IMG/VR virus record: IMGVR_UViG_3300037189_003424
Coordinates: 1 to 47,988 of that record
DNA: 47,988 bases
Strand: one strand, 5' to 3'
From: a virus
Shown: positions 4,559-47,988 of the stretch, piece by piece
Layout: every line of letters starts with the position of its first letter
How positions within the stretch are numbered: position 1 is the first letter of the stretch
Made by a program: the position numbers and the translations under genes
Notes under the pieces: model-generated
Databases searched by the model: none
Seen by the model: only the letters and a program-made list of their open reading frames with translations
Told to the model about the DNA's origin: nothing

Positions 4559-4587
4559 AGTATAATATCACCACATTTTTATTGCAA
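4559..4587 (-). promoter_or_regulatory. Sigma70-type promoter for gp55
   Basis: On the minus strand, TTGCAA (4587-4582; four of six consensus positions) and TATACT (4564-4559; five of six) are separated by exactly 17 bases. Transcription would begin near 4552, inside the palindrome that covers the gp55 ribosome binding site. The -35 element overlaps the divergent late promoter at 4586-4593. Confidence 0.5.
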
Positions 4588-23200: not shown

Positions 23201-26200
23201 AATCTTCAATTTTATGAAGTTGATAATACAGAATTACTAACACACAGAGAATATGTATTAATTGCTAAAGATGATCCGTATGCTATCATACCGCCCTCAA
23301 TTGAAACTAAATGGTTTGACAGTCTTGTAGGATCGAATATGTTTGGACAGCCTTTACCAGATTTAAAACTTAATAAGAAACAGAGATATGGTAATTTAAA
23401 TAGTCCTCGACAGACTTGGTTTGTTAATCGTTTTGAAGCATTGAAGCAATTAATTGAATATGTAAATTCTGTATTAGCAAAGAACATCATAATTGATGAT
23501 ATTAATTTCGCTAATCTAAAAAAGAATGATCCTATCCCAACTTTATATTCTGGAGATGTTGATGAGATTGTTGATGTTTTTTATGAATTAAAATTTGTTG
23601 GAACATCAAAACTTAAAACAGCAAAGCTGTCTCCATTGATACTAGAAGGTAAGATAACAGCCGTAACTATAGTTGATGAAGGATACGGTTACGGTCGTAA
23701 TGTGGTCTATAAAATCGATGAATTTGGCGAGCCAATTAGTTGGTATGGTCCTAATGTTAAAATATTAGGATCTGGCAAAGGTGCAGAAATCCGTACAGTT
23801 ATAAATGATCAAGGAGTTATTACTGAAGTTTTAGTAATTAAGCCAGGTTCAGGATATGATGATAATACTACTCTTTCTATAAGAAATTATACTGTATTAG
23901 TTAATAATGATGAAGAGGCTAATAATGCTTGGACATTATACTACTGGAATACTACAGATAAAGAATGGGACAGATTTAGAACTCAAGCATATGATGTAAC
24001 AAGATATTGGTCATACAAAGATTGGTATGAAACAGGATATGGTCTGTCATCGGATATCGGATATCAAGTTGAAAGGACTGTTGATTTAAATGGACTTCCG
24101 ACCCTAATTGGTGACATAGTTAAAATTAATAATGTTGGATATGGAAATTGGTTACTATTAGAAAGAATCAATGACAGTAATTCTCTAGATTTTACTGACG
24201 ATTACAAAGTAGTTGGTAAACAAAACGGAACTATAGAATTTTCAAGCAAACTCTATAATTATCAAACTTTAGGGTTTGACACTAATACTAGTTTTGATTT
24301 GTCTTTCTATGATCAAGGACCGACGACTGAAATAAGGATAATTTTAGAAACTTTACGTGATACTATATTAGTTAATACTTTAAGAGTAGAATATGTAAAA
24401 ATGTTCTTTAATAGTGTATATTATGTTCTAAGTGAGCAACTATATACGGATTGGTGTTTTAAGACTAGTTTCTTAAAGGCTAATCATAATGTTGGATCGC
24501 TTAAGCAGAGAATTACATTCCAAAGTGACGAAGTAGATAGTTATGAATCATTTATGGAAGAAGCTAAACCTTATAAAACCAAAATACGTGAATGGATAAG
24601 TTCTTATCAATCTTTAGAAGAGACTAATCTTCTAGTAACAGATTTTGACTTACCGTCATATTATAGTACTGCTAACAATATAAACAGGATAGAACAAACT
24701 ACATTAAGATCGGATAATATTGTACAGTATCCTTGGAAAAATTGGTTAGATAATCACACATATAAAATTACTGATATAGTGCTAATGGATGGTGGTGATG
24801 ATTATACAACTACCCCAATTGTAATAATATCCGGCGGCGGAGGTTCAGGAGCTAAAGCTACTGCTTATATTGCCAATAGAAAAGTTTATAGTATTGTAAT
24901 CGATGATCATGGTTATGGATACACATCAGCTCCTGTTATTTTTATAAGCGGCGGAAATGGAAACATTGAATCTAAAAGAGCAAAAGCATATGCTAAAATC
25001 GGTAATGGATTAGCTCGATCAACACTAGTGGGTATGAAATTTGATAGATATGCACGAACATATGTTCAAACTGTTGATAAAAATGGAGAAAATAATTTCA
25101 GTTACACTGATAAATTTAAAGGTACTGGTAATACAAAATCATTTAAATTGACATATGCTCCTGAAATAGAGAAGAGCAAATTTACAATATTAGTTAACAA
25201 TCTTCAATATTATGGATCACAATATAGTGTTTCTATTATAGAAGTAGAGCATGATACTTACACTGCATTAGAAGGATATATTGTGTTTGTTCAAGCACCT
25301 TCATTTGGTGTTGATATTGAAATAACCTATGATAAAAATATTAAATTATATTCAGCAGCTGATAGGATTAACTATGCCTACACGCCAACAGTTGGACAAT
25401 ACGGTAAAGACTTAGGACAGTTAATGACTGGTATTGATTATGGAGGAGTTTCCATTACCAGTATTGATTTTGAAATAGGTGGCGGTTGGTCTGTATTACC
25501 ATGGGATGTATCTTCATGGGATAACGTACTTTCAAGTAATGATGATTTTGCTGTAATATATGGTGATACTAGAGAGTTTACGCTTCCATTTACTCCAGCA
25601 GTTGGAGAAACGATTAATATCTATCGAGAGAATCCTATCACAATCTCATCAATTATTACTGATAATATAGATAATTTAATGACAATTCCAGTTAAAGATG
25701 TTTACAATGTACAACTTGGTGATACTGTACATGTTAATGGAGTTGGAGTTGTTGGAAGAGTATTGTCTATAGAAAACAATATTGTAATATTAGACAAATC
25801 AGTTGATCATAATACGGCAAAAGATACAGTTATAACATTCACTAGACAGATTACAACTAGACTTGATCCGGATCTTATGGATTCATTTATTGGTAATGGA
25901 ACTACTAATGTAATAACTATTCCGTCTGGTGTACATTTAGAAAATGGCTTTATATTAATATTCCGTAAGAGTACTTGTGATGGGTCTATATTACCATCAG
26001 ATAGAAGTGTAATGGATACATTAATATCAGGTGGTAATTTATCTTATTCGTCAGCAACAGGATCTAAACCTGAAGATATTGTAATAGATGGTGATCAATT
26101 GATCAGTTCAGATACAAGTCATGGTCCAGAAGAATTAGTTGAAGGTCAAGTATTTGATACTGTAAGTTTAAAAGTATATCATACCCCAACAACCGGCGGA

Positions 26201-32619: not shown

Positions 32620-32627
32620 GATAAATA
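32620..32627 (+). promoter_or_regulatory. Late promoter before tail fibre 3
   Basis: GATAAATA lies in the 42-base gap between fibre 2 and fibre 3. A start six bases on (near 32633) gives a 24-base leader that contains TAGGAG seven bases before the ATG at 32657. Position and leader fit the same late-promoter class as 4586 and 10648. Confidence 0.5.
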
Positions 32628-34262: not shown

Positions 34263-35243
34263 ATGACGATATCATCAGGCGGATTGATACAAGCAACAGA
34301 CTATAATACACTTCGATCAACGGTTGTAAGTATTTTAGGTACTACTGGTTCAGGAGATGTTGGATACGGTCAAGCTGTTACAGCAGATACTGATGTTGTT
34401 GCTAATACTGATCGTGTATCAGCTGCCCCTACTACTGTTAAGCAGTGGGTAGCTTTGTATAATGACATGCTTAAAATTGCGCAGCATCAAGGAACCGATA
34501 TTTCTGCTGTTACTACAGCCTTTACTAGAGCTTCAGCTCCTATTGCAACTGGAAGTCTTATACAATATTCAGATATTAACACGATCTCAACAGCAGTAAC
34601 TACACTTTATAATAATAGACTTAATATAGCAGCTAGTGGTTATAGTGCTATCACAACACCATTAACTTCACAGAGAACTACAGAGTGGGGATCCGCAGCC
34701 ACTAAACCAATTATACAGCATCAATTTACAGTAACTTTTACTAATTATAACGAGGCTCGATATTTCTTTAATACTGGAGGTGCTATACAATTTTCAGCAA
34801 CACGTACAGGTGGAGGTGCTACAGCACAGAATACTGCTTGGGATACGTTGCTTTCGGGAATGGGAACTATTAGTTTTGGATATACTGCTACTACTACAAC
34901 AGGAACAGGATCAACTTCCTCAATCGGATTTTATGATCTAAGTGCTTCCCCGCAGACGATTTTCTCAAAAGGTGGATACGGGCTAACAGGAAGAACAGAT
35001 AGTCTTTATACAAATAATGATTATTATATTACTGCTACGATAAGTACTGCTGCTACAACTATTATAACTTTTAACATATATCTTACAGACGATGCTAAAC
35101 AACAAGTTTCTTTCCCTTGGGGTGTTTTTGACTATGTTGATGGTATTTTAACAAGTAATATAGGAATGAAACGAGCAGTAGTATCTGGCGGTGTTACTGC
35201 TACTGCACCAACATTTGCTAATACTATAAATCTTTCTGCTTAA
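34263..35243 (+). CDS. Virion structural protein of the tail-fibre region
   Basis: A 326-residue protein. The N-terminal half has repeated elements: LIQATDYNTLRSTVVSILGT, SGDVGYGQ, then later SLIQYSDINTISTAVTTLYN, suggesting an internal duplication of an I..SDYN.L.S.V motif. The C-terminal half is a Thr/Ser/Gly-rich beta domain (FTVTFTNYNEARYFFNTGG, a T-rich loop, SKGGYGLTG). I recognise similar proteins encoded next to fibre genes in T4-like marine phages, where they are listed as structural; the exact place in the virion is unknown. A GAGGAAG site precedes the ATG. It is the last structural gene before the accessory operon. Confidence 0.65.
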   Translation: MTISSGGLIQATDYNTLRSTVVSILGTTGSGDVGYGQAVTADTDVVANTDRVSAAPTTVKQWVALYNDMLKIAQHQGTDISAVTTAFTRASAPIATGSLIQYSDINTISTAVTTLYNNRLNIAASGYSAITTPLTSQRTTEWGSAATKPIIQHQFTVTFTNYNEARYFFNTGGAIQFSATRTGGGATAQNTAWDTLLSGMGTISFGYTATTTTGTGSTSSIGFYDLSASPQTIFSKGGYGLTGRTDSLYTNNDYYITATISTAATTIITFNIYLTDDAKQQVSFPWGVFDYVDGILTSNIGMKRAVVSGGVTATAPTFANTINLSA

Positions 35244-35250
35244 TCAAAAC

Positions 35251-35279
35251 TTGAACTTTTTCCAATAATAATGTATAAT
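35251..35279 (+). promoter_or_regulatory. Sigma70-type promoter of the accessory operon
   Basis: TTGAAC (35251-35256, four of six consensus positions) and a perfect TATAAT (35274-35279) are separated by exactly 17 bases in the 59-base gap before the first accessory gene. Transcription would begin near 35286, and GGAG (35292-35295) lies seven bases before the ATG at 35303. No ATAAATA late element is present, unlike the structural genes. Confidence 0.6.
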
Positions 35280-35293
35280 TATATTATTATTGG
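35262..35293. repeat. Perfect 11-base inverted repeat framing the TATAAT box
   Basis: CCAATAATAAT (35262-35272) and ATTATTATTGG (35283-35293) are exact reverse complements separated by ten bases that contain TATAAT. As DNA it could be an operator for a dimeric regulator; as RNA from upstream transcription it could form an AU-rich hairpin. No U-run follows, so a classical terminator is unlikely. Confidence 0.65.
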
Positions 35294-35302
35294 AGATTTC
35301 GC

Positions 35303-35653
35303 ATGGATGACAGATTAAAGTCAGCTCTTGATGTAGCTAACAGGATGGTTACATTTAATACACAAAAAGAATTAATTAAGCAAGAATATAAAGAAAATTG
35401 TCTTTATCATGAGAATGGTCATCAATTCACTATCGGTCAGGAACTCATAAACTTCTTAACATCACTTATACAGATGGGCCATGATGAAGATGTAGTGATT
35501 ATTGATGATTTTGAAAATCCTTATATGATATCCGATGTTGAAAGATTCCGTAATAATATTTTCAGTATATATGCTGAAAAGAGCAACGAATACTATCACA
35601 AGTATGTTGAATTAAAGAAAAATCGATCAGTTTTAAAAATGATTGGAGTATAA
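35303..35653 (+). CDS. Conserved small protein heading the accessory operon
   Basis: A 116-residue protein of unknown function, conserved as far as I recognise in T4-like marine phages close to structural and glycosyltransferase genes. Visible: a helical N-terminus (LKSALDVANRMVTFNTQKEL), a short hydrophobic strand EDVVIIDDFENPYMI (about residues 69-83) and a helical, basic C-terminus (YYHKYVELKKNRSVLKMI). No enzyme motif, signal peptide or membrane segment. It starts after the sigma70-type promoter, and its TAA is followed directly by the ATG of the next gene, so it is translated with the glycosyltransferases. Confidence 0.55.
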   Translation: MDDRLKSALDVANRMVTFNTQKELIKQEYKENCLYHENGHQFTIGQELINFLTSLIQMGHDEDVVIIDDFENPYMISDVERFRNNIFSIYAEKSNEYYHKYVELKKNRSVLKMIGV

Positions 35654-36535
35654 ATGACATCGGGCGTTTTAATGTTTGCCCATAATAATCGAGAAATTGA
35701 TTATGGTATGATGGCATATGTATCAGCTAGATACGTAGAAAAAAATCTAAAAGTTCCTGTTAGTTTAGTTACTGACTCGGGCACTATAGATTGGTTAGAT
35801 AAAAAAGATCCTAATTTAAAATCTGCGTTCGATAAGATTATTTTAACAGATACACTACCTAAACTTGATCCATATGATAAGAGATTCTATGATGGTTCAT
35901 TAACTTATAAAAAGACTGCATTTAATAATGGATTTCGTGCTAGAGCATACGATCTTTCTCCATACGATCAAACTCTAGTTATAGATACTGATGTCTTAAT
36001 CAAGAATGATAGATTAAAAAACATATGGAATTCAAATGCTGATTTTATGATAAATTCTAAACATATTGATCTAGCATATGAAAGAGATGGCAGTGAATTT
36101 TTGAGAGTAAGTGAATATACTGTAGATTTTTATTGGGCTACTGCTTTCTATTTTAAAAGAACAACATGGACAGAAACGTTTTTTAATCTATGTCAACATA
36201 TTGCTGAAAATTATGATTACTATAGATTTTTATATCAGATTGCATATCCTGTATTGCGTAATGATTTTATCTTTAGTATAGCTATACATATCATGAATGG
36301 ATTTAGCAATAAGACAGTTCCTCAAACATTACCAGCAGAGTTTTATTACACTACTGATAGAGATGAATTATATCAAGTTAATCTTGATGGAACTTTAATA
36401 TTTTTAGTACAAAAGAAGAATTCCTTAGGAGAATATACTTTAGCTAAAACAAGTTCACAAAATATACATATAATGAACAAATACAGTTTCAACAGGAATA
36501 TGTCCAAGATGTTGGAGGTTTTAGATGCCAACTAA
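35654..36535 (+). CDS. Glycosyltransferase-like protein A (GT-A fold)
   Basis: A 293-residue protein with GT-A features: an N-terminal VLMFAHNNREIDYGMMAYVS strand-helix, VPVSLVTDSGT, then YDLSPYDQTLVIDTDVLIK, in which D111-T-D113 is a DxD metal/nucleotide-sugar motif. The later FYWATAFYFKRT segment matches the acceptor side of family 8-like transferases. It should move a sugar from a nucleotide donor to an unknown acceptor in the cytoplasm. The next gene encodes a paralogue and overlaps by 11 bases. The sugar and acceptor are not readable. Confidence 0.65.
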   Translation: MTSGVLMFAHNNREIDYGMMAYVSARYVEKNLKVPVSLVTDSGTIDWLDKKDPNLKSAFDKIILTDTLPKLDPYDKRFYDGSLTYKKTAFNNGFRARAYDLSPYDQTLVIDTDVLIKNDRLKNIWNSNADFMINSKHIDLAYERDGSEFLRVSEYTVDFYWATAFYFKRTTWTETFFNLCQHIAENYDYYRFLYQIAYPVLRNDFIFSIAIHIMNGFSNKTVPQTLPAEFYYTTDRDELYQVNLDGTLIFLVQKKNSLGEYTLAKTSSQNIHIMNKYSFNRNMSKMLEVLDAN

Positions 36536-37394
36536 GGGATATTTAATACTTGCCCAAAATAACAGTTCTAACGACTATGTAAGGATGGCATATGTATTAG
36601 CACTTAGTATAAAAAACTCACAAAAAGAAATCACTTCGGTTAGCCTTATAACAGACGTTCCTGATGCTGTTCCTAATCATTACAAGGAAGTATTTGATCA
36701 TATTATAGAAATACCTTGGTATGATGATGCATTAAACTCAGATTGGAAAATTGAAAATCGTTGGAAAATATATCATATAACTCCGTACGATGAGACTGTA
36801 TTGCTTGATGCTGATATGTTATTTTTAACAAATGTTGATCATTGGTGGGGAAATCTTAGTAAGAATTATGATCTTTTTATTACTTCTAATGTAATGACCT
36901 ATCGTAATGAAACAGTAACAAGTGATTATTATCGAAAAGCATTTGTGAGAAATAATTTACCAAATACATATAGTGCTTTCACTTACTTTAAGAAAACAGA
37001 ATTTGCTGAGGAATTTTGGACTTTAGTTGAAGTTATAGTTAAGAATTGGAAAGAATTTTATGATAAATTTTTACCAAACTATACACCTAAACACCTTAGT
37101 ATAGATATTGCATTTGCTTTAGCTGTAAAGATTTTAGATATTGAAGATCGAGTAACAACAAAATTTGATTATCCAACATTTGTACATATGAAAAGTAAAA
37201 TACAAAATTGGTTTATATCTACTGATGATTGGATGGATTTTGGCGGTGTTTATCTAAATAGGCAGGGTTTACTTAAGATAAGCAATTATCAACAGACTGG
37301 TATATTCCATTATACAGAAAAGAAATTTTTAACTAAGCATATAGAATATGTTTACGAAGATCTTTATAAGGAGAAAATAAATGGATCAAGATGA
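36525..37394 (+). CDS. Glycosyltransferase-like protein B (GT-A fold)
   Basis: A 289-residue paralogue of the preceding protein. It shares YLILAQNNSSNDYVRMAYVL at the N-terminus, SVSLITDVPD, and YHITPYDETVLLDADMLFL with a DxD motif D95-A-D97. The YSAFTYFKKTEFAEEFWTLV segment aligns with FYWATAFYFKRTTWTETFF of the neighbour. A tandem duplication followed by divergence is likely, so the two may add different sugars or act as a pair. The gene overlaps the previous by 11 bases and the next by 14, consistent with a single mRNA. Confidence 0.65.
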   Translation: MPTKGYLILAQNNSSNDYVRMAYVLALSIKNSQKEITSVSLITDVPDAVPNHYKEVFDHIIEIPWYDDALNSDWKIENRWKIYHITPYDETVLLDADMLFLTNVDHWWGNLSKNYDLFITSNVMTYRNETVTSDYYRKAFVRNNLPNTYSAFTYFKKTEFAEEFWTLVEVIVKNWKEFYDKFLPNYTPKHLSIDIAFALAVKILDIEDRVTTKFDYPTFVHMKSKIQNWFISTDDWMDFGGVYLNRQGLLKISNYQQTGIFHYTEKKFLTKHIEYVYEDLYKEKINGSR

Positions 37395-38013
37395 TTTAGA
37401 TGCTTTAGAATTGTTAAAACAATTACTAAATCCTACTCCTAATATAGAATTTTATTTCCATTATGATACATTAACTGGTCGTGTTATGAGTATTCGAAAT
37501 TATTTTGAATCAGATGATACATATCCTTATATCAAAGTTTCTCAAAGTGATTATGATCCAGATATATCTATGAATGATTATAGGATCATAGATAAAGATG
37601 GTAAGAAAACTCTAGTTAAAAATTTAAATCTTATTGATAATATACCAAAAATTGATGATACTATATATCAGATCCGAAAACAATTAGCATCTCCTGAGGT
37701 AAAAATATCTCAAAGAAATTATCAATTTGATTTATTAATTGAACAGGATAATGACAAAAAAGAATTTCGAATTAGAGTATCGGGAGAAATAAAGGATCAG
37801 TATCATCAAGTTCTAACAACAAATCGAAAACTTGTATGCTACGTAACAGCAGAAAATGATCCAAATATTCTTTATAGAACTCTTGACATTCCAATGGGAC
37901 ATTTGTTAAACTATAATTATTATACTATACCATACGGTGAATATGATGGCACTCCGTGTAACATATTTGCTTTTCGATTTTTTCAAAATTATTTACATTT
38001 GGTGATTGAATGA
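37381..38013 (+). CDS. Unrecognised protein in the glycosyltransferase operon
   Basis: I do not recognise this 210-residue protein. It begins with an acidic helix (DQDDLDALELLKQLL), then a predominantly beta pattern (IEFYFHYDTLTGRVMSI, YIKVSQSDYDPDIS, FDLLIEQDNDKKEFRIRVSG, LVCYVTAENDPNILYRTLDI). No signal peptide, membrane segment or catalytic motif. The beta pattern and alternating charges suggest a carbohydrate- or protein-binding module rather than an enzyme. An AAGGAG site precedes the ATG inside the end of the upstream gene, and its own stop overlaps the next start (ATGA). Confidence 0.5.
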   Translation: MDQDDLDALELLKQLLNPTPNIEFYFHYDTLTGRVMSIRNYFESDDTYPYIKVSQSDYDPDISMNDYRIIDKDGKKTLVKNLNLIDNIPKIDDTIYQIRKQLASPEVKISQRNYQFDLLIEQDNDKKEFRIRVSGEIKDQYHQVLTTNRKLVCYVTAENDPNILYRTLDIPMGHLLNYNYYTIPYGEYDGTPCNIFAFRFFQNYLHLVIE

Positions 38014-38888
38014 CTAAACTGATATTACATGACATTGATACAATATTCATCAGCTATGATGAACCTAACGCTGATAAGAATTATTCTGAATTGGTTAAGA
38101 TTCTCCCTTGGGCTAAACGTATACACGGTGTTAAAGGAAGCGATGCTGCACATAAAGCTGCTGCTAATTTAAGTGAAACTGATAGATTTGTCACAGTTGA
38201 TGCTGATAATATAATTGATTCTAGATTCTTTGCACAAAACATTGAACTGACTGATGAAAATAAAGATTTTGTGTTCTCATGGTGCGGCAGAAATGCCATT
38301 AATGATCTTGTTTACGGTAATGGTGGATTAAAGTGTTGGACCAAAGATTTTGTCCTTAACATGAAAACACATGAAAATTCAGATCCAGATGATAGTGAAA
38401 GTGTTGTTGAATTTTGTTTTGATCCTAGATATTATCAGATGAATGAATGTTATTCTGTAAGCCATATTAATGGCAGTCCGTTCCAAGCATGGCGTGCTGG
38501 ATTTCGAGAAGGTGTTAAGATGAGTCTCGATCGTGGTGCTAAGGCTGTTGATATTAAACGTGTATGGTGGCAGAATTATCAAAGACTATTAATATGGTGC
38601 AATATCGGTGCTGATGTAAAGAACGGCATTTGGGCAATGTACGGTGCTAGATTAGGCTGTTACCTAACAGCTTGTACTGAATGGGATTATACACAAGTTA
38701 GAGATTTTGAGTATCTAACAGACTATTGGACAAAACATGTTGAACATGTAGATGTTGAAGATGAAATTGAAGGCATCGGAAATAATCTAAAACAGAATTT
38801 AGATCTAGAGATAGCAGAAATGGATGCGAATGCTTCTCGATTCTTTAAGTCAGTATATCAAAATACCCCAAGGGTGATAGGAAGATAA
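38010..38888 (+). CDS. Glycosyltransferase-like protein C (family 2-like)
   Basis: A 292-residue protein. The start LHDIDTIFISYDEPNADKNY followed by AKRIHGVKGSDAAHKAAANL and FVTVDADNII carries a DxD motif at D64-A-D66, a pattern known in phage proteins related to family 2 glycosyltransferases. The later FSWCGRNAINDLVYGNGGLK and HINGSPFQAWRAGFREG segments are conserved in that group. The truncated last gene in this window shares the same start-and-WVIDLD pattern, suggesting a family within this operon. It overlaps its upstream neighbour by four bases. Confidence 0.55.
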   Translation: MTKLILHDIDTIFISYDEPNADKNYSELVKILPWAKRIHGVKGSDAAHKAAANLSETDRFVTVDADNIIDSRFFAQNIELTDENKDFVFSWCGRNAINDLVYGNGGLKCWTKDFVLNMKTHENSDPDDSESVVEFCFDPRYYQMNECYSVSHINGSPFQAWRAGFREGVKMSLDRGAKAVDIKRVWWQNYQRLLIWCNIGADVKNGIWAMYGARLGCYLTACTEWDYTQVRDFEYLTDYWTKHVEHVDVEDEIEGIGNNLKQNLDLEIAEMDANASRFFKSVYQNTPRVIGR

Positions 38889-38892
38889 ATTT

Positions 38893-40281
38893 ATGAGTAC
38901 TGAGAATAGTAACGAAGCAAAAATAAGTCTTTTAGAAAAAAAAAGAGACATGATGAATTCGGTTAGTCCGAGTTTTTGTTCAGCTAAATGGTTACAAACG
39001 ACATTATATCTACAAAACGGCTATAATCACAGTTGCCATCATCCAGCACCTCATATTATACCTCTACAAGAAATTGAAGAAAATCCAGCAGCTCTACATA
39101 ATACTAATTTTAAAAAAGAACAGCGTAAGTTAATGCTCGATGGAAAACGCCCAACAGAGTGTGATTATTGTTGGAGGCTTGAAGATTTAAATAAAGACCA
39201 TTTTAGCGATCGTCATTATAAGACAGCTGATCTTTGGGCATGGGATCGATTTGATGAGATATCAAAATCTAATCCTAATGATAATGTAAATCCTTCATAT
39301 TTAGAAGTTAGTTTTTCAAATGCTTGTAATTTTAAATGTTTATATTGTAGTCCAGAAATCAGTTCTAGATGGTTAGATGAAATTGAAGAACATGGTCCGT
39401 ATCCAATAACTAGAGGAAGCCAGGATCTTAAATGGTTAAAAGAAATTAACAAATTTCCCTATAAGCATAATGAACATAATCCTTATGTAGAGGCATTTTG
39501 GAAATGGTTTCCAGATATGTTGCCATCATTGCGAGTTTTTAGAATTACTGGTGGCGAGCCATTAATGAGCAAAGATACTTGGCGTGTGTTAGACTATATT
39601 AGGAAAAATCCACAACCTAATCTAGAACTAGCAATTAATACTAATCTCTGTGTTGATGATAGACTAATCGAACGTCTAATAGATGAAGTTAATAGTATCA
39701 AGGATTGTGTTAAGAAAGTTGATATCTATACAAGCTTAGAAAGCACTGGCGCACAAGCAGAATATACTAGATTTGGTTTAGACTACGATAAATGGTTAAA
39801 AAATGTTAGATTAGTTTTAGATAAAACCGATTGTATAGTAGCAATAATGACCACAGTAAATATATTAAGCTTGCCTACATTTACTGATTTTATAGAAACA
39901 ATTATGCAGTTCCGTAAGGAATACAATTTAGATTTTGCTTATAATCGGATCCCATTAACTATTAATTATTTAAGATGGCCACCTCATCTTTCTGCTAAGA
40001 TTTTGCCAGAAGACATGAGAAAAGAATATGCCTCTAAAATACTGCTCATCTGTGAGCAGTGGTTAAAGTATTATAGGAAAGAAACATTTGCAAGGATCTA
40101 TCTTGAAGAATGGGATCAAATACAGAGATTTTGCAATCTCTTAATAAAAAATGATCCTTTTACAAACGAACGATATGACTTTGTTGATTATATAACAGAA
40201 GCAGATAAACGAAGGAATACAAATTTTAAAGAAACTTTTCCAGAGTATGCTCATCTTATAGATAAATGGAATGATGAATAA
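38893..40281 (+). CDS. Radical SAM enzyme 1, N-terminal twitch type
   Basis: A 462-residue radical SAM protein. The SAM cluster motif CxxxCxxC is C145, C149, C152 (CNFKCLYC), followed by an RITGGEPLMS segment and later strands typical of the partial TIM barrel. Before it, C29 (FCSAKW), C48 (SCHHP) and C90/C93 (CDYCW) form a second Cys set that fits an auxiliary iron-sulfur cluster placed N-terminally, as in N-terminal-twitch radical SAM proteins. Substrate unknown. The next gene encodes a clear paralogue (ENPYV.AFWKW, then RITGGEPLMS). It starts four bases after the preceding glycosyltransferase-like gene, pointing to a shared pathway. Confidence 0.8.
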   Translation: MSTENSNEAKISLLEKKRDMMNSVSPSFCSAKWLQTTLYLQNGYNHSCHHPAPHIIPLQEIEENPAALHNTNFKKEQRKLMLDGKRPTECDYCWRLEDLNKDHFSDRHYKTADLWAWDRFDEISKSNPNDNVNPSYLEVSFSNACNFKCLYCSPEISSRWLDEIEEHGPYPITRGSQDLKWLKEINKFPYKHNEHNPYVEAFWKWFPDMLPSLRVFRITGGEPLMSKDTWRVLDYIRKNPQPNLELAINTNLCVDDRLIERLIDEVNSIKDCVKKVDIYTSLESTGAQAEYTRFGLDYDKWLKNVRLVLDKTDCIVAIMTTVNILSLPTFTDFIETIMQFRKEYNLDFAYNRIPLTINYLRWPPHLSAKILPEDMRKEYASKILLICEQWLKYYRKETFARIYLEEWDQIQRFCNLLIKNDPFTNERYDFVDYITEADKRRNTNFKETFPEYAHLIDKWNDE

Positions 40282-40283
40282 TT

Positions 40284-41789
40284 ATGCCAAAGAAACCAAA
40301 TGAATCATTAATTGAATATCGTACTCGTGTAATTGACTCGAAAAGTAAAAGTTTTTGCGGAGCTAAGTGGCTCAATGCTACTACTTGGCTCGGAAGCGGA
40401 ACCACAGCAAGCTGTCATCACCCACCAGCTCATAAAATTCCACTTGAAGAAGTAGCAGAAAATTTTACAGCAATACATAATACTAAGCATAAGAAACTTA
40501 TGCGTAAGATGATGCTCGAAGGAGATCGACCAGCAGAGTGCGAATATTGTTGGAAGATTGAAGATATGGGTAAAGATAGCGTTAGCGATCGAATATTTAA
40601 AACCATCATTTATAAAGATGAAGAATTGGATTTTATTAATGCATTACCATGGGATTCAAATGTTAATTTAAAAACATTTGAAATTAGTTTTGATCGTGTT
40701 TGTAATTTAGCTTGTAGTTATTGCAATGCTAGTTTTTCAACTACCTGGGCTAAAGATATTAAGAACAATGGACCTTATCAAAATCTAGTTAGTGATGGTA
40801 GCGGAGCATTTAAGCAAGACGGGTCCTGGGTTGAACCTTTTAAACGAGATGAAGAAAATCCTTATGTTACAGCATTTTGGAAATGGTGGGATAGCGGATT
40901 AAATGAGTCTTTAGAAGAAATACGTATCACTGGTGGTGAGCCTTTAATGAGCAGTGAAACATGGAAACTTCTAGATTCTTTTGAAGAACGCCAATCAAAC
41001 ATGCGATTTGCCCTTAACAGCAATCTTATTGCTAAGAAAGACATCATTGACAAATTAATTGCTAAAACAAAAAAGATAAAAGATTTCCATTTATACACAA
41101 GCTGTGAAGCAATTGGAGAACAAGCAGAATATATTCGAGATGGTTTTGAATATAGACTTTGGAAAGATAATTTAACAAGAATAGCAACTGAAGGTAATCT
41201 TAAAGGTCTTCATGTAATGATGACTATTAATAGTCTTTGTTTGTTTAGTATTACAGAATTTCTTGACGAAATATACGGCCTTAAAGAACATTTTGGAACT
41301 CGTAGTTTAACTGTAAGTGTAAATCTTTTACGTTTCCCAAGTTTCCAAAGTCCATTAGCATTACCTGATCATATAAAGAATTATTGTAGAGAAAATCTGG
41401 AGACATGGTACAACTCTGTTAAAGATAAACCATTATGGCATGAATTTGAAAAAGCCAGTATTGAAAGATTAATTGATTATCTCATTACGGTAGATGCTCC
41501 TCATCGAAGGACAAGCAATCGTATCACTCTTTGGAGAGATTTCAAAACGTTCTATTCTCAGTATGATGAGCGTAGAGGTAAAAGTATTAAAGTATTTCCA
41601 AATATTCTAACAGATTGGATGGATCAGTTACCTGACACTATAGTAGAATCTCAAACTCAATTAATCAATGGTGATAGTACACAGCAATATATAAATGATG
41701 AACAATTAAATGAATTAGCCAAACGTGAAGGATGGATATTGACCCCGTCTAATACAAATATCGAAAGGCCGTTAGACAAATATGAATAA
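40284..41789 (+). CDS. Radical SAM enzyme 2, N-terminal twitch type
   Basis: A 501-residue paralogue of the previous enzyme. The SAM cluster is C140, C144, C147 (CNLACSYC); the auxiliary set is C25 (FCGAKW), C44 (SCHHP) and C86/C89 (CEYCW). It shares GPY, ENPYVTAFWKWW and RITGGEPLMSSETWK. It differs by an insertion near SDGSGAFKQDGSWVEPFKRD and an extra C-terminal tail of about 60 residues (GDSTQQYINDEQLNELAKRE onward). Tandem duplication with divergence suggests two different substrates or consecutive steps. It begins two bases after the previous stop and overlaps the next gene by eight bases. Confidence 0.8.
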   Translation: MPKKPNESLIEYRTRVIDSKSKSFCGAKWLNATTWLGSGTTASCHHPPAHKIPLEEVAENFTAIHNTKHKKLMRKMMLEGDRPAECEYCWKIEDMGKDSVSDRIFKTIIYKDEELDFINALPWDSNVNLKTFEISFDRVCNLACSYCNASFSTTWAKDIKNNGPYQNLVSDGSGAFKQDGSWVEPFKRDEENPYVTAFWKWWDSGLNESLEEIRITGGEPLMSSETWKLLDSFEERQSNMRFALNSNLIAKKDIIDKLIAKTKKIKDFHLYTSCEAIGEQAEYIRDGFEYRLWKDNLTRIATEGNLKGLHVMMTINSLCLFSITEFLDEIYGLKEHFGTRSLTVSVNLLRFPSFQSPLALPDHIKNYCRENLETWYNSVKDKPLWHEFEKASIERLIDYLITVDAPHRRTSNRITLWRDFKTFYSQYDERRGKSIKVFPNILTDWMDQLPDTIVESQTQLINGDSTQQYINDEQLNELAKREGWILTPSNTNIERPLDKYE

Positions 41790-42645
41790 ATTTGTTGATA
41801 AACAGAAAATAAAAAGATTTTTTTCTTTTGGATGCAGTTTTACTCGATATGCTTGGACGACATGGTCTGATATCATTGCAGAAGAATTAAAAGTTCCATA
41901 TTATAATTATGGTGGTGCAGGCGCCGGGAATCAATACATATTTAATACAATAATGCAAGCCGATGCTTTTTATAAATTTAACGAAAATGATTTAATCATG
42001 GTTTCTTGGACTAATGTTTGTAGAGAAGATAGGTATATAAAAGATAAATGGCAATGCCCCGGTAATATATACAGTCAAAATTTATATTCAAAAGAATGGG
42101 TTGATCAATTTGCTGATACAACTGGCATGGCAATGAGAGATTTTGCCGCAATCCATGCTGTAAATACTATTCTCAAAAGTAAACAATGTCAATATTATTT
42201 TTTATCAATGATAGATATTACAAAATTTTTTAATCAATATCAAATTAACGATGAAAATCTTAAAAATGAAACTACTTCTACCCTTATTTCGATATATAAT
42301 AATTCATTATCAACTATAATATCTAATTTTTACGATGTATTGTGGAATGGGGAAATCAATAATAAGATTAATAAAAATAAAAAAAAATTTAATTGTCGTT
42401 TTAATGATCCCCATCCTTCCCCAATTGAACATTATGAATATCTTAAAGAATCTTTAAAATATGAATTTAATGAAACTACTATAAAAAAAGTACAAGAAGC
42501 AGAAGATACATGGGAAAGATTACTAATTAAATGGGCATACAATACTAAAGATTCTATAAAACCGCCTCTCAAAGAAATATATTCTCTTACACAAATTGCT
42601 TTTGAATATGAAGTTAACCCACAAGGATGGATTCTTTATAGATAA
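41782..42645 (+). CDS. SGNH/GDSL-type hydrolase-like protein
   Basis: A 287-residue protein with the SGNH block pattern: FSFGCSFTRYAW carries the putative nucleophile Ser19, GGAGAGNQYI supplies the glycine (about residue 49) and Asn50, and DPHPSP near the C-terminus supplies Asp209 and His211. SGNH enzymes hydrolyse or transfer acyl esters, often on surface polysaccharides. Position among glycosyltransferases supports an acyl-sugar role, but this is an inference. The stretch after about residue 160 is very AT-rich and Lys/Asn-rich compared with upstream genes. No signal peptide, so it should act in the cytoplasm. It overlaps the upstream radical SAM gene by eight bases. Confidence 0.65.
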   Translation: MNKFVDKQKIKRFFSFGCSFTRYAWTTWSDIIAEELKVPYYNYGGAGAGNQYIFNTIMQADAFYKFNENDLIMVSWTNVCREDRYIKDKWQCPGNIYSQNLYSKEWVDQFADTTGMAMRDFAAIHAVNTILKSKQCQYYFLSMIDITKFFNQYQINDENLKNETTSTLISIYNNSLSTIISNFYDVLWNGEINNKINKNKKKFNCRFNDPHPSPIEHYEYLKESLKYEFNETTIKKVQEAEDTWERLLIKWAYNTKDSIKPPLKEIYSLTQIAFEYEVNPQGWILYR

Positions 42646-42681
42646 AATTTTTTAAAAAATAATATAAAGGTAATTAATTAT

Positions 42682-43947
42682 ATGAAATCAATATCTGATC
42701 TTAAAAAAAATAAAACTTTCTGTATGGCCCCTTGGACACATATGCATTTTATGCCAAATAAAGCAGTTAACCCTTGCTGTCTTTCTCCGATAGATCAAGT
42801 TTTAGGCAATTTAACAGATCAAACAATTAAAGAAGTATGGAATAGTGATGTAACCAAACAACTTAGACTAGATATGTTAAATGAAGTTCCTAGGAAGGAT
42901 TTCTGTGTACGATGTTATGAAAAAGAAGAAGATGGATTTTCTAGTCTTAGGTCACATATGAATGATAGTTATTCTGAAAAACATCGTAAAGTTGTAGAAA
43001 GCACCCAAACTGACGGAACAGTTGAAAATCTTAATTTAATACATTGGGATTTTAGATTTAGTAATATTTGTAATCAACGTTGTCGTACATGTGGAATTGA
43101 ATTTTCATCTCAATGGCATGATGATTATATTAAACTTTGGGATGTTCCAAAAGAAAATCAACCACCTAAGATTAAAAAGATATGGAATAATCTTGAATCT
43201 TTTGAAAAAGATTTTGAAGGATTGTTTGATATAGTTGAATACATTCACTTTGCTGGCGGCGAGCCATTAATCACTGATGAACATTATAAGGTATTGGAAA
43301 AGTTAATAGAGAAAAAACAATTTGATGTTAAAATACGATATAGCACTAATTTTACTAGTTTAAAATATAAAAGTTATGATTTAGTAGATATGTGGAAGAA
43401 TTTTAAAAACATTGAACTAATGGCTAGTCTAGATGATTTTGGAGATAGATATAATTATATTAGAAAAGGTGGAGATTGGAATAAAGTTGTAGAAAATTTT
43501 CAAAGACTTAAAGATGCAGGTCTATTTAAAAATGGTAATATCCGTTGGGGAATACATCCTACTATAAGTTTTTGGAATATCTATTATCTTCCAGAGTTTC
43601 ATTCAGAATGCGTTCGATTAGGAATGATAGATTTTAGAGAAAGAAAAAATCATTTTAATACTACATTTCATTTAAACAATCTTATGTTTCCGGATTACTA
43701 TTGCTGTCAAATTTTACCAAGAGAACTAAAAGAAGAAGTATCGAAGAAATTATTAGCCTATGCTGGTGTTTGTGAATCTGAATATAAGATTAGTGCAGAT
43801 GGAATTAGAAATCTAGTATCTTTCATGAATCAAGAAGATAAATCTCATCTATTGCCAAAGATGAAATATATGAGTGATAAAATTGATAAAATACGCAATG
43901 AAAATACAGCAGAAGTATTTCCGTTTATTAAGGAGTTGTTCCAATGA
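42682..43947 (+). CDS. Radical SAM enzyme 3, N-terminal SPASM/twitch-like
   Basis: A 421-residue protein with SAM cluster C130, C134, C137 (CNQRCRTC) and an IHFAGGEPLIT segment. The N-terminus reads like a SPASM motif placed in front of the barrel: FCMAPW (C14), NPCCLSP (C32, C33), VLGNLTDQTIKEVWNSD, FCVRC (C75, C78). It is only distantly related to the two radical SAM proteins upstream. N-terminal-twitch radical SAM proteins are known but mostly without assigned substrate. The 36-base gap before it carries AAAGG and an AT-only palindrome. Its stop overlaps the next ATG, linking it to the SEK-motif proteins. Confidence 0.8.
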   Translation: MKSISDLKKNKTFCMAPWTHMHFMPNKAVNPCCLSPIDQVLGNLTDQTIKEVWNSDVTKQLRLDMLNEVPRKDFCVRCYEKEEDGFSSLRSHMNDSYSEKHRKVVESTQTDGTVENLNLIHWDFRFSNICNQRCRTCGIEFSSQWHDDYIKLWDVPKENQPPKIKKIWNNLESFEKDFEGLFDIVEYIHFAGGEPLITDEHYKVLEKLIEKKQFDVKIRYSTNFTSLKYKSYDLVDMWKNFKNIELMASLDDFGDRYNYIRKGGDWNKVVENFQRLKDAGLFKNGNIRWGIHPTISFWNIYYLPEFHSECVRLGMIDFRERKNHFNTTFHLNNLMFPDYYCCQILPRELKEEVSKKLLAYAGVCESEYKISADGIRNLVSFMNQEDKSHLLPKMKYMSDKIDKIRNENTAEVFPFIKELFQ

Positions 43948-45122
43948 TATCCTTAGTAAAATTTAAAATTATCTCCGAATTTCAAAAAAATAAATTTTAT
44001 AACGCTAGGGTTGAACCAGACGAAGATCCAAATTACGGTAAAAAAGATGATAATCTAATTAATGATTCTTCTAAATATCATTTCTTTAGAGTTGTTAACA
44101 TAGATACTACTTGGTATTTTAACGATAATACTAGTTATATTTTTCCAATTTTTATTGATAATTTAGTTTTTTCAGTTAATGAATTAACTTTTTTTCTTAA
44201 CAAATTTAAGATTTTTATTGAAGAACATGAAGAACTATTTTTAAATAAAAAATTAATTCCAGTTTTTTTAGATCCGTTTGAAGGTAACATACATGTAGGA
44301 GATGAAATAAACAATTTTACTAGAACCTATAATAACATTCAATTTTATCATATTAGTGCTGATTATAAATTAAAATACAAAGAAAATAAATTTAAATTTT
44401 GCTATGTTAATATGTGGCAGTATCGTTTAGAATCTCAAGAAAATATAATTGATTATATTCCTAAAAAAGATTATATAAATCTCAATCGAATGCCGAGATT
44501 ACATAGATGTTTATTAATCCAGAGTTTAATTGATAATTCGTTATTAAGTAATGGATATAACTCCTGGGCCCCTGCTAATACAACTAATAATTCTATGTAT
44601 TCTAATGGATTTCTTGATATATTTAGAAATAAATATCCAAATAATACGATTGAACAACAAAGATATGATATCTTAGATGTAGTTGACATCGAACACGAAA
44701 ATCCTAATTCACTTATTCCGATAGAACATTGCAGAGAAAGTTTTATGTATATAGTTACAGAAACTCATTTTGATAATGAATGTTTCTTTATAAGTGAAAA
44801 ATCATATAAACCTATAGCAATAGGTATGCCATTTATGATATTAGGAAATCCAGGAACACTTCAATATTTTAGAGAAAAAGGCTATGCTACTTTTTCAAAT
44901 TGGATCGATGAAAGCTATGATATGGATCTACCGCTTGAAGACAGAATTAATATCATAGTACAGAATTTAATTAAAATATCAACTTTACATAATATTGAAA
45001 AGATCAACATTCGTAGACAAATGAATGAAATTTGTAAACATAATCTAGATCTATATAAATTACTCAACAGGAAAAATAATTTAATTGAGACTCTAAAATT
45101 AATAGAGAAACAGATGATATGA
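43944..45122 (+). CDS. Putative glycosyltransferase-like protein with SEK motif, copy 1
   Basis: A 392-residue protein without a recognised catalytic domain at the N-terminus. The C-terminal part has YIVTETHFDNECFFISEKSY, KPIAIGMPFMILGNPGTLQY, FREKGYATFSNWIDESYD and an R-I-NIIVQ helix. The SEK..KP......PF...G.PG.L...R..G..TF....DESYD order resembles the nucleotide-sugar-binding end of family 10-like transferases and of a widespread group of marine phage proteins. The next gene carries the same pattern in a weaker form. Function as a transferase is inferred. Codons are strongly AT-biased. Confidence 0.5.
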   Translation: MISLVKFKIISEFQKNKFYNARVEPDEDPNYGKKDDNLINDSSKYHFFRVVNIDTTWYFNDNTSYIFPIFIDNLVFSVNELTFFLNKFKIFIEEHEELFLNKKLIPVFLDPFEGNIHVGDEINNFTRTYNNIQFYHISADYKLKYKENKFKFCYVNMWQYRLESQENIIDYIPKKDYINLNRMPRLHRCLLIQSLIDNSLLSNGYNSWAPANTTNNSMYSNGFLDIFRNKYPNNTIEQQRYDILDVVDIEHENPNSLIPIEHCRESFMYIVTETHFDNECFFISEKSYKPIAIGMPFMILGNPGTLQYFREKGYATFSNWIDESYDMDLPLEDRINIIVQNLIKISTLHNIEKINIRRQMNEICKHNLDLYKLLNRKNNLIETLKLIEKQMI

Positions 45123-46123
45123 TTGAGTTAAACTATAATATTTGGAGTCACAGTGTATCTGATATAATTTTAAGGGATATCGCAGAACGATCTCCAAATC
45201 GTATTAATATTTTTGCAGCCGAAGAACACGAAATTAATCGAAACTGGTCTATCACACAATGTGAACCATATAAAACAATATTTAAAGAAAATAATATTGA
45301 AGTAAATTTTGTTTTTGGGTCAGCTGATATGTCTTTTTATAATGAAAACTATCATTTTCCAACAGATAATATTAATACATATTTATGGCCACATTATCAT
45401 ATGTATCGTTCATTTAACGAATTATATGATCATCGATATTTTTTAAATCAAAATAAATTAAATTTAAAATTTACGATACCGTTTATTTCAATGAACAATC
45501 GATCACATACACATCGCAAAATTTTAATGGATAATTTAGAAAAATATAATCTTATCAATTATGGAGCAGTATCTTGGCATAATGATAATGATATTTCTTA
45601 CGATTGGAACTATTGGAAAAATAATCATAGATTAGTTTTATCAGGTGATTATCAGAAAAATTTTAATAATTTTATTATTCCGTTAGAATGGAACGATAGC
45701 TTTATGAATTTAGTATCAGAATCAACAATTGATAAAATATTTTTTACTGAAAAAACATGGACACCATTATTTCTTCAGAAACTGTTTTTAGTACAGAGCG
45801 CCCCTCATTTTTATAAAGTTTTTCAAGAAATGGGTTTTTTAATTTACGATGAAATATTTGACTATTCATTTGACAATATTTTAGATATAAATGAAAGAAC
45901 AGATGCTATTGTTCAAAATGTTAAAAATATTATAGGAAAAGATTATGAACAATTGTATAATATTTCTAAATTAAAATTAGAATATAATTTTAATCATGCG
46001 ATAAAAATAATAAGCTCTGATAACAATATTATACCTATTGTAAAAAATAGTGAGTTTGCAATGAAACAATATAATTTAGAGTATATTAAATCTATCGCAT
46101 TACCATTTTTAAAAAATAACTAG
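45119..46123 (+). CDS. Putative glycosyltransferase-like protein with SEK-type motif, copy 2
   Basis: A 334-residue protein with LNYNIWSHSVSDIILRDIAE at the N-terminus, IPFISMNNRSHTHRKILMDN (about residues 120-140), and a C-terminal block IDKIFFTEKTWTPLFLQKLF, LVQSAPHFYKVFQEMGFLIY, DEIFDYSFD. The block aligns with the SEK block of the preceding protein (FF.EK...P......F.....P.......E.G......I.D.S.D), so they are distant paralogues. HRK near residue 132 could be a nucleotide-binding element as in similar phage proteins. The start overlaps the previous stop. This is among the most AT-rich genes in the window. Confidence 0.5.
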   Translation: MIELNYNIWSHSVSDIILRDIAERSPNRINIFAAEEHEINRNWSITQCEPYKTIFKENNIEVNFVFGSADMSFYNENYHFPTDNINTYLWPHYHMYRSFNELYDHRYFLNQNKLNLKFTIPFISMNNRSHTHRKILMDNLEKYNLINYGAVSWHNDNDISYDWNYWKNNHRLVLSGDYQKNFNNFIIPLEWNDSFMNLVSESTIDKIFFTEKTWTPLFLQKLFLVQSAPHFYKVFQEMGFLIYDEIFDYSFDNILDINERTDAIVQNVKNIIGKDYEQLYNISKLKLEYNFNHAIKIISSDNNIIPIVKNSEFAMKQYNLEYIKSIALPFLKNN

Positions 46124-46135
46124 AAGGAAAAAATA

Positions 46136-47368
46136 ATGAATATAGGATTTATAGGTATCGGAAAATTAGGAATGCCCTGTGCTGAAGTCATAGCAGCTAA
46201 AGGTCACTCAGTTAACGGTTACGATATATCTATTAAAAAAAGTAATTTAGTTAACGTAGTCTTGTCAATAGAAGAATGTGTTAATGGTAGAGACATTGTC
46301 TTTATAGCAGTTCCAACTCCTCACGATCCTGCATATGATGGAAGAGCTCCAACAGCTCATTTAGAGCCTAAGGATTTTAATTATGATATTGTTAAGGACT
46401 GTGTAATTGAAGCAAATAAATTCATGAATAAGGATCAGTTGCTAGTATTAATTTCAACTGTTCTTCCAGGAACTACACGTAGAGAATTTATTCCATTAGT
46501 AACAAATACTAGGTTTGTGTATAATCCTTATCTTATCGCGATGGGCAGTGTGGCTTGGGATATGGTAAATCCAGAAATGGTTATGATTGGAACTAAGGAT
46601 GGCAGTCTTACAGGTGATGCTAGACAATTAGTTAATTTCTATGAAACTATTATGGAAAATAGTCCTAGATATGAAATCGGTACTTGGGACGAATGCGAAT
46701 GTATCAAGGTTTTTTATAATACATTTATATCTGCTAAGATTGGACTAGTGAATATGATACAGGATGTAGCACTTCGACAGGGAAATATTAATGTTGATAT
46801 TGTTACAAATGCTCTTGCTAAATCAACGATGAGAATTATGGGTCCGCAATATATGAAAGCAGGAATGGGAGACGGCGGAGCGTGTCATCCACGAGATAAT
46901 ATAGCACTAAGATATATGGCCGAAGAATTAGGATTAGGGTATGACTTATTCGATTCTATAATGAATGCTAGAGAAATACAAGCTTCAAATCTAGCAAAAG
47001 TTTTAGTTTTACAAGCTAAACAAAATTTGATGGACATTTATATACATGGCAAAGCTTATAAACCTACAGTTGATTATCTCGACGGTAGCTATAGTTTGTT
47101 AATTGGGCATTATTGTGAGCAATATGGATTTCCTCCAAAATATATTGATCCATTAACTGGAGATAACCATGACGAAGTTTATGGTGTCATACTGTTAGCC
47201 CATAATAGACGAGTTACTTACGAATATAGTGGGCAAACTGAAGAGCAAGGATTGTATTGTAAGATCAGTAATGGTAGCATAATTGTCGATCCGTGGAGAT
47301 CTTTTACAACTGATAATGAAAATATCAAGGTAATTCATTATGGAAATACTAGGATAATACAGGATTAA
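46136..47368 (+). CDS. UDP-glucose/UDP-sugar 6-dehydrogenase-like protein
   Basis: A 410-residue nucleotide-sugar dehydrogenase. The N-terminus MNIGFIGIGKLGMP holds a GxGxxG NAD-binding motif (G7, G9, G12). ECECIKVFYNTFISAKIGLV matches the E..K...N.....K catalytic block, and GDGGACHPRDN carries the catalytic cysteine C250, with AYKP at the third domain. The family oxidises UDP-glucose (or GDP-mannose and similar) to the uronic acid in two NAD-linked steps, supplying an acidic sugar for transferases. A longer loop than usual follows the PTP motif (AYDGRAPTAHLEPKDF). It has an AAGGA site and sits downstream of the glycosyltransferase-like genes, supplying their probable donor. Confidence 0.85.
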   Translation: MNIGFIGIGKLGMPCAEVIAAKGHSVNGYDISIKKSNLVNVVLSIEECVNGRDIVFIAVPTPHDPAYDGRAPTAHLEPKDFNYDIVKDCVIEANKFMNKDQLLVLISTVLPGTTRREFIPLVTNTRFVYNPYLIAMGSVAWDMVNPEMVMIGTKDGSLTGDARQLVNFYETIMENSPRYEIGTWDECECIKVFYNTFISAKIGLVNMIQDVALRQGNINVDIVTNALAKSTMRIMGPQYMKAGMGDGGACHPRDNIALRYMAEELGLGYDLFDSIMNAREIQASNLAKVLVLQAKQNLMDIYIHGKAYKPTVDYLDGSYSLLIGHYCEQYGFPPKYIDPLTGDNHDEVYGVILLAHNRRVTYEYSGQTEEQGLYCKISNGSIIVDPWRSFTTDNENIKVIHYGNTRIIQD

Positions 47369-47384
47369 TATGTTATAATAAATT

Positions 47385-47988
47385 ATGTATGATATTTTCT
47401 ATCTTAAAAAAATTGAAACAACCAATGGAAACCTTATTGAATTACGTAAAAGGTTTCCATTAATCAAAGTTGTTGAATACAGTGATGACAAATTTGAAGC
47501 ATTAAACAAGATTAAACAAAAATCAATAACTAAACTTTTTTGGGTGATTGATCTTGACATTGATTATCAAATTTCGGATAGTTTTAATTTTGATTATGTA
47601 GTTCCTGAATGGGATAAAATCTACGTACATATTTGGAAGAAAAAAAATAATACTGAAGAAAGTTCTTTTGGAAATGTTTATTTGATATCTAAAGATTATC
47701 CTTTATCTAAAAAAGAGGGAAAATATTTTTTCTTTATTAATAAAAAAGAAATTCCTATTGAAGCATCGAGGATATCGTATGATGTATTGGAATTAAAAAA
47801 AAATGATAATGTACATGATAAAATAGTTTCATTCCAAAATCAATGCAATGCCTCTATGTTCTGGGTATTAGCCCCTGATTGTAGAATATTGGGTGAATTG
47901 AATTATGTAGTACCTGATTATGATAAAGAATATGTACATCAATGGACGCCAATTAATCACGAGTCACCAAATTTATTCTTAATACCAA
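47385..47988 (+). CDS. Two-repeat protein related to glycosyltransferase-like C, cut by window end
   Basis: The frame opens at ATG 47385 (MYDIFYLKKIETTN) and runs without stop to the end, at least 201 residues. It contains two copies of one unit: KLFWVIDLDIDYQI, then FDYVVPEWDKIYVHIW in the first, and MFWVLAPDCRIL, then LNYVVPDYDKEYVHQW in the second. The unit resembles the beginning of the glycosyltransferase-like protein at 38010 (IFISYDEPNADKNY, FVTVDADNII). The second repeat keeps APDC instead of a DxD pair, so it may bind rather than catalyse. The C-terminal part lies outside the window. A TATAAT just before the ATG may be chance. Confidence 0.55.
   Translation, partial: MYDIFYLKKIETTNGNLIELRKRFPLIKVVEYSDDKFEALNKIKQKSITKLFWVIDLDIDYQISDSFNFDYVVPEWDKIYVHIWKKKNNTEESSFGNVYLISKDYPLSKKEGKYFFFINKKEIPIEASRISYDVLELKKNDNVHDKIVSFQNQCNASMFWVLAPDCRILGELNYVVPDYDKEYVHQWTPINHESPNLFLIP

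Follow-up and report, generated by a model that had tools for sequence, protein, structure and literature searches.

Islands in which phage fibre genes stand beside glycosyltransferase (GT) genes and radical SAM cassettes are already known, and the pelagimyophage HRC is the closest known kind. The available passages of PMC7029224 describe the HRC of pelagimyophages and cyanomyophages as a hypervariable island of the structural region with fibres, GT8, UDP-glucose 6-dehydrogenase and radical SAM cassettes, place it in pelagimyophages between the VrlC and gp14 genes, and propose that it modifies the host O-chain against coinfection. Polysaccharide clusters of jumbo phages contain several GT families and are proposed, in the accessible part of PMC7824862, to pre-empt the attachment of other phages; the cyanophage clusters differ in carrying kinases and nucleotidyltransferases, and the text of that paper does not mention radical SAM. 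The T4-related Campylobacter phages CP220 and CPt10 have an interchangeable five-gene radical SAM module with a glycine amidinotransferase, for which the relevant passages of PMC2853527 assign no role and report no GT or fibre linkage. The marine T4-like environmental genome TARA_ERS488813_N000010 encodes 12 radical SAM genes, read as Fe-S metabolism (PMC5332604); it is rich in radical SAM genes like the locus described here, and GT context is not discussed in that paper.

The DNA analyzed here (the window), a 47,988-base piece recorded in IMG/VR, comes from a large uncultured aquatic phage, a T4-related jumbo-type myovirus. It resembles the HRC in that its structural region holds fibres together with GT, Ugd and radical SAM genes. 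Unlike the HRC, its baseplate relatives are neither pelagimyophages nor cyanomyophages: the baseplate wedge protein is closest to those of the jumbo phages Salicola phage SCTP-2, Agrobacterium Atu_ph07 and Sinorhizobium Phosso (~34% identity). The preliminary description spoke of an undescribed system, which is too strong in view of the related islands and modules of PMC7029224 and PMC2853527. What is new against the known islands is the lineage, a fixed g1-g5 core, a pair of radical SAM genes (A-B) with a CHHPxxH twitch variant, and a predicted leader switch; neither an own promoter nor a hairpin was found in the available description of the HRC (PMC7029224).

Thirteen packed ORFs were called on the + strand from 35303 to the window end, where the last one (g13) is cut. 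They overlap by 11, 14, 4, 8, 4 and 4 bases or are separated by gaps of 0-16 bases, with a single 36-base gap before 42682, a spacing that agrees with the preliminary description. Four fibre-like genes immediately precede the operon, which encodes five GT-like proteins, of which three are of GT-A and two of GT-B type, together with three N-twitch radical SAM proteins, one SGNH-like protein and Ugd. The genes are as follows.

34263..35243, + strand: fib0, Thr/Ser-rich fibre-like protein directly 5' of the operon
35303..35653, + strand: g1, conserved 116-aa protein without assigned function, always the first gene of the operon (conservation)
35654..36535, + strand: g2, GT8/glycogenin-like GT-A glycosyltransferase (profile)
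36525..37394, + strand: g3, GT8/glycogenin-like GT-A glycosyltransferase (phrog_1903, profile)
37381..38013, + strand: g4, fast-evolving 210-aa protein without assigned function
38010..38888, + strand: g5, GT-A-fold glycosyltransferase-like protein with a DAD motif (structure model)
38893..40281, + strand: rSAM_A, N-twitch radical SAM protein with CHHPxPH replacing the CC twitch motif (NF033640)
40284..41789, + strand: rSAM_B, N-twitch radical SAM protein with CHHPPAH, the most conserved of A, B and C (NF033640)
41782..42645, + strand: SGNH-like hydrolase/acyltransferase, an accessory gene (motifs only)
42682..43947, + strand: rSAM_C, N-twitch radical SAM protein with canonical twitch cysteines (NF033640)
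43944..45122, + strand: g10, SEK-motif GT-B-fold glycosyltransferase-like protein (structure model)
45119..46123, + strand: g11, shorter SEK-motif protein, probable GT-B (alignment with g10)
46136..47368, + strand: Ugd, UDP-glucose 6-dehydrogenase-like (phrog_9148)
47385..47988, + strand: g13, repeat-domain protein related to g5-type genes, truncated at the window end

The baseplate-fibre region also contains a single ORF of 4670 aa (14204-28216) with FG-GAP repeats and a CBM5/12 carbohydrate-binding module.

The preliminary description of the operon is accurate. A profile of g2, g3 and their relatives matched glycogenin (E 1.6e-7, profile positions 9-106), and in 32 sequences the DxD motif has an invariant D97 and a nearly invariant D95; g2 and g3 are GT8/glycogenin-like GT-A glycosyltransferases with putative nucleotide-sugar activity. 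For g5 a sequence-profile search of solved structures gave nothing usable. Its model (pLDDT 89.7) has its best solved matches mostly among GT-A glycosyltransferases, with some nucleotidyltransferases (matches include SunS, RmlT and GlyE), and the model of the SEK protein g10 (pLDDT 87.2) matched GT-B glycosyltransferases among the matches listed (SdgB, SenB, a fucosyltransferase). The models reach low TM-scores of about 0.2-0.45 (by query length) and support the fold class, GT-A for g5 and GT-B for g10, and not the family. Membership of the SEK proteins in the GT10 fucosyltransferases found no PDB profile match and no Pfam match, the fucosyltransferase 2nzy appearing at rank 16 only, as a GT-B fold match. 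Profile searches of solved structures with g1, g4, rSAM_B and SEK gave nothing usable, and a syntaxin match of g1 (E 0.015) was taken as chance. Ugd matched phrog_9148 at 6.5e-95. The putative SGNH assignment comes from motifs (GCSFT, GAGN, DPH), and profile searches returned no match. Among the 13 ORFs in the window none was recognised as a gene for export, a membrane protein or a lipid carrier, a point against action on the host surface, access to which must then go via host machinery.

All three radical SAM proteins matched NF033640 ('N_Twi_rSAM') over their full length and above its cut-off of 170 bits (A 335, B 306, C 364 bits). The CxxxCxxC radical SAM motif is present in every homologue (133/133 for A, 101/101 for B, 175/175 for C). 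The twitch cysteines have the CC form in 158 of the 175 C homologues and are replaced by CHHPxxH in A and B (96 each), which form a subtype. Literature searches found no substrate of any NF033640 enzyme and no paper on N-twitch radical SAM enzymes in phages. A viperin-like antiviral role, in which the radical SAM proteins would make chain-terminating nucleotides against rival phages, is suggested by weak pVip matches of 27-31 bits. These cover part of the radical SAM core only, the NF033640 scores over the full length are tenfold greater, NF038283 reaches only 19-25 bits where its cut-off is 180, and the twitch domain and the GT linkage do not fit; the viperin-like identity was rejected, and such a role is extremely improbable.

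In a search of 50,697 phage records the only matches of rSAM_A and rSAM_C were distant radical SAM proteins, most of them from the Vibrio phages K566 and K567, while rSAM_B, g5, g3, SEK and a g1 relative found no match. In Vibrio phage K566 (L189) three annotated radical SAM genes are clustered near a PagP lipid A acylation gene, and this cluster is possibly a candidate cultured system for surface modification.

The strongly syntenic relatives are uncultured aquatic phages. A first scan with rSAM_C yielded ten contigs in which the cassette was largely syntenic; profile scans then gave at least 574 relatives for rSAM_B and at least 592 for g5, of which 80 each were fetched for comparison of the loci. 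Of 88 distinct loci among the fetched relatives, 86 retain the order fibre-g1-g2-g3-(g4)-g5, nearly always with fib0 in front, and in 66 of 69 cases B comes no more than two genes after A. The dN/dS values against the nearest relative are 0.06-0.30 for the operon genes tested, indicating purifying selection, and 0.39 for fib0, the fastest-evolving neighbour. The preliminary description had made co-conservation in relatives one of the points on which its proposal could fail, and the proposal withstands this check strongly; gene order is retained in dozens of other contigs, which together with the dN/dS values places the operon far beyond chance.

The region 3' of g5 is variable. It is a near-empty slot in freshwater phages, and many loci hold just a second g5-like gene, followed by an opposite-strand block starting with a ThyX-like gene. 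Elsewhere the cassette continues after A-B with additional genes of the radical SAM, SEK, SGNH, Ugd, epimerase or carbamoyltransferase kind. A second phage lineage has A and B downstream of GT7-family and other enzymes and a chaperone-domain fibre. At several loci (L028, L030, L048, L053, L057, L060, L066-L068) genes for a fatty-acid desaturase, an Asp/Asn hydroxylase-like and a GNAT-like protein lie just 5' of A-B, which suggests lipid or acyl tailoring. Two phage cassettes (L010:15520-16392, L011:15485-16417) contain a TctC-type solute-binding receptor gene adjoining the carbamoyltransferase.

The radical SAM paralogues, with the carbamoyltransferase and epimerase of the variable part, would also suit the production of a secreted metabolite or a modified peptide, and a secreted-product role is suggested for some jumbo cyanophage clusters in the available part of PMC7824862. 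That the GT genes are invariant and the radical SAM genes variable speaks against such a product, as does the failure to identify a precursor peptide, transporter or synthetase in the operon, and we regard it as improbable.

The position of the operon next to fibre genes is invariable, and it also suits a decoration of the virion, in which fib0/fib1 would be glycosylated in the cytoplasm by the GTs, and the radical SAM enzymes would act on the sugar so attached or on the peptide of the fibre. The Ser/Thr-rich composition of fib0, the resemblance of g2 and g3 to glycogenin, a protein-glycosylating enzyme, and the presence of the protein/peptide glycosyltransferases SdgB and SunS among the weak structural matches to the g10 and g5 models point the same way. 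Against it stand the cellular relatives and the regulatory signals.

Bacterial homologues were obtained from MAGs and a pattern-limited genome scan, in which 12 of 15 loci belong to MAGs of Bacteriovoracaceae/Bdellovibrionales; the remaining three are from another MAG, a Deltaproteobacteria MAG and a Neomarinimicrobiota MAG contig resembling phage. Ordinary chromosomal genes are found near the cassette genes on several bacterial contigs. In Bacteriovoracaceae, A lies immediately 5' of a GT4 glycosyltransferase gene in six loci, and in two loci of this family (L186:6286-8628, L187:11346-13682) the GT4 gene behind A forms a fusion with the gene that follows it in the cluster. A and B homologues neighbour GT genes in bacterial chromosomes, with no fibre seen there, which weighs against virion decoration; linkage to GT genes in phages and bacterial chromosomes alike favours a host surface glycan. 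Bacterial and phage rows of A and B are interleaved in a quick tree with long branches, which is weak evidence consistent with exchange between phages and bacteria in either direction. The 335 kb contig PBPT01000016.1 (L188), binned as Candidatus Neomarinimicrobiota, carries the cassette (Ugd 74% identical, SEK, SGNH, radical SAM) and is probably a misbinned jumbo phage.

The signals that bear on the time of expression are the following.

35251..35279, + strand: sigma70-type promoter of the g1 operon, TTGAAC-17-TATAAT (conserved site in relatives)
35259..35296, + strand: 17-bp RNA hairpin with its loop at the -10 hexamer (35274-35279) and its 3' arm holding the g1 Shine-Dalgarno sequence GGAG (35292-35295)
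32621..32627, + strand: T4/cyanophage-like late motif ATAAATA before fib1

Further late motifs at 4587, 10649 and 28213 lie ahead of structural genes; in all, ATAAATA precedes four structural units in the window (4611, 10678, 28225, 32657) and is absent before g1. Sigma70-type sites of 10/12 are found in the window before g1, a gp55-like sigma gene and SbcD. A promoter scan of the region alone found 101 sites against 105 expected, which is chance level, so that no single site in the window counts as evidence and only position-specific conservation does. Among relatives, 80% of the g1 leaders have a sigma70 site of at least 10/12 and 64% one of at least 11/12, as against 2% and 0.3% of dinucleotide shuffles. 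Leaders of fibre genes have a sigma70 site in 0-2%, and ATAAATA in 85% for fib1. Most internal operon genes have neither signal, and c13 and c15 of the opposite-strand block have a sigma70 signature like that of g1. This conservation led us to give up the idea that g1-g5 are transcribed as part of the late fibre unit. As judged from these motifs, the promoter class of the g1 operon differs from that of the late fibre genes, middle expression or late leakage being possible.

A second sigma70 promoter, TTGACA-17-TATAAT, lies before the second g5-like gene in numerous loci (L022, L024, L026, L031-L033, L044-L046, L050, L054 and others) and marks a second radical SAM operon in the same island. TATAAATA is absent from the window, where shuffles predict 16 occurrences, and TATAAAT is present 25 times; the phage seems to use late sites of the AATAAATA/GATAAATA type and to avoid the T4 form.

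An early-type promoter would also be expected if GT and radical SAM enzymes put a bulky sugar on the phage bases against restriction. T4 encodes early DNA glucosyltransferases, and a carbamoyltransferase is present in some of the cassettes. The operon is without a base hydroxymethylase, a thymidylate-synthase-family gene was found in 4 of 12 searched contigs, some of them possibly incomplete, and hypermodification of DNA leaves the fixed linkage to fibres unexplained. This role is very improbable.

The hairpin of the window has a predicted energy of -18.8 kcal/mol (z -6.15). In an alignment-free duplex test of 64 promoters of relatives the promoter spacer was complementary to the leader with a median z of -3.8, and after thinning to <70% identity with a median z of -3.1 (35 leaders), as against -0.9 for the control promoters before c13. 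The g1 ribosome site is predicted to pair with the promoter spacer in 25 of 34 leaders, and about a quarter of the g1 leaders have no clear spacer pairing. Whole-leader folding reached z < -2 in 52% of g1 leaders and in 0% of fib1 leaders. In a gapless set of 11 leaders 90% of the hairpin pairs are kept, four pairs having changed on both sides; RNAalifold on MAFFT alignments of the g1 leaders gave no consensus hairpin. Predicted median energies for g1 are -12.8 kcal/mol for read-through transcripts and -0.2 kcal/mol for own-promoter transcripts. Since the latter start within the 3' arm, they are predicted to be open, and read-through from the fibre genes to have a hidden ribosome site.

Leaders of this kind are known from the T4 genes e, soc, 49 and I-TevI, in which a promoter lies in a hairpin that hides the ribosome site of longer transcripts, and transcripts of the gene e type that start at the internal promoter do not contain the 5' arm and are translated (PMC3014915). 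The g1 leader is alike in that its ribosome site is predicted to be paired in longer transcripts. It differs in that the internal promoter of T4 is late and early read-through is blocked, whereas the g1 promoter is of the sigma70 type and late read-through would be blocked.

This architecture of promoter and hairpin separates the operon from the late fibres. The preliminary description had left the choice between attachment of a sugar to the fibres and alteration of host surface glycans that excludes other phages; the second is now favoured and the first weakened. With a promoter class unlike that of the late fibre genes and a predicted hairpin that should shut off read-through, virion decoration is unlikely.

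The best explanation, which we hold to have about an even chance of being correct, is a fibre-linked operon for glycan modification that acts on the infected host and not on the virion. Built on the observed gene content, folds, synteny, promoter class and complementarity of spacer and ribosome site, it suggests the following course. Host RNA polymerase would transcribe the operon from the sigma70-type g1 promoter soon after infection. The GT-A enzymes g2, g3 and g5 and the GT-B enzymes g10 and g11 would make or lengthen a surface glycan, with UDP-glucuronate provided by Ugd, and radical SAM A, B and C together with the SGNH protein may tailor the sugar, e.g. by epimerisation, deoxygenation, dehydrogenation or acyl transfer. 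Rival or sibling phages would fail to adsorb to the receptor modified in this way. Late read-through transcripts from the fibre genes would fold the hairpin over the g1 ribosome site, and the operon would be silent during virion assembly. The glycan may be the receptor for the adjoining fibres, which would explain why fibres and operon stay together.

A more specific form of this host-directed reading is offered tentatively, at a likelihood well short of even: fibre and receptor mask would be an exchangeable unit of uncultured aquatic phages, the mask made early only, through the sigma70 promoter within the hairpin, and the fibre late only, and the A-B pair with CHHPxxH would perform a new radical tailoring of surface glycans, which predatory Bacteriovoracaceae would share.

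GT and radical SAM genes near phage fibres have so far been listed as auxiliary, with their roles guessed. The promoter and hairpin evidence offers a concrete means to tell decoration of the particle from a change of the host surface, one that metatranscriptomes already at hand would allow to be checked. A-B is a conserved two-enzyme radical SAM module of hundreds of viral contigs and of Bacteriovoracaceae that has no close relative in the isolate phage records, and the g1 leader would mirror the classic lysozyme switch of T4.
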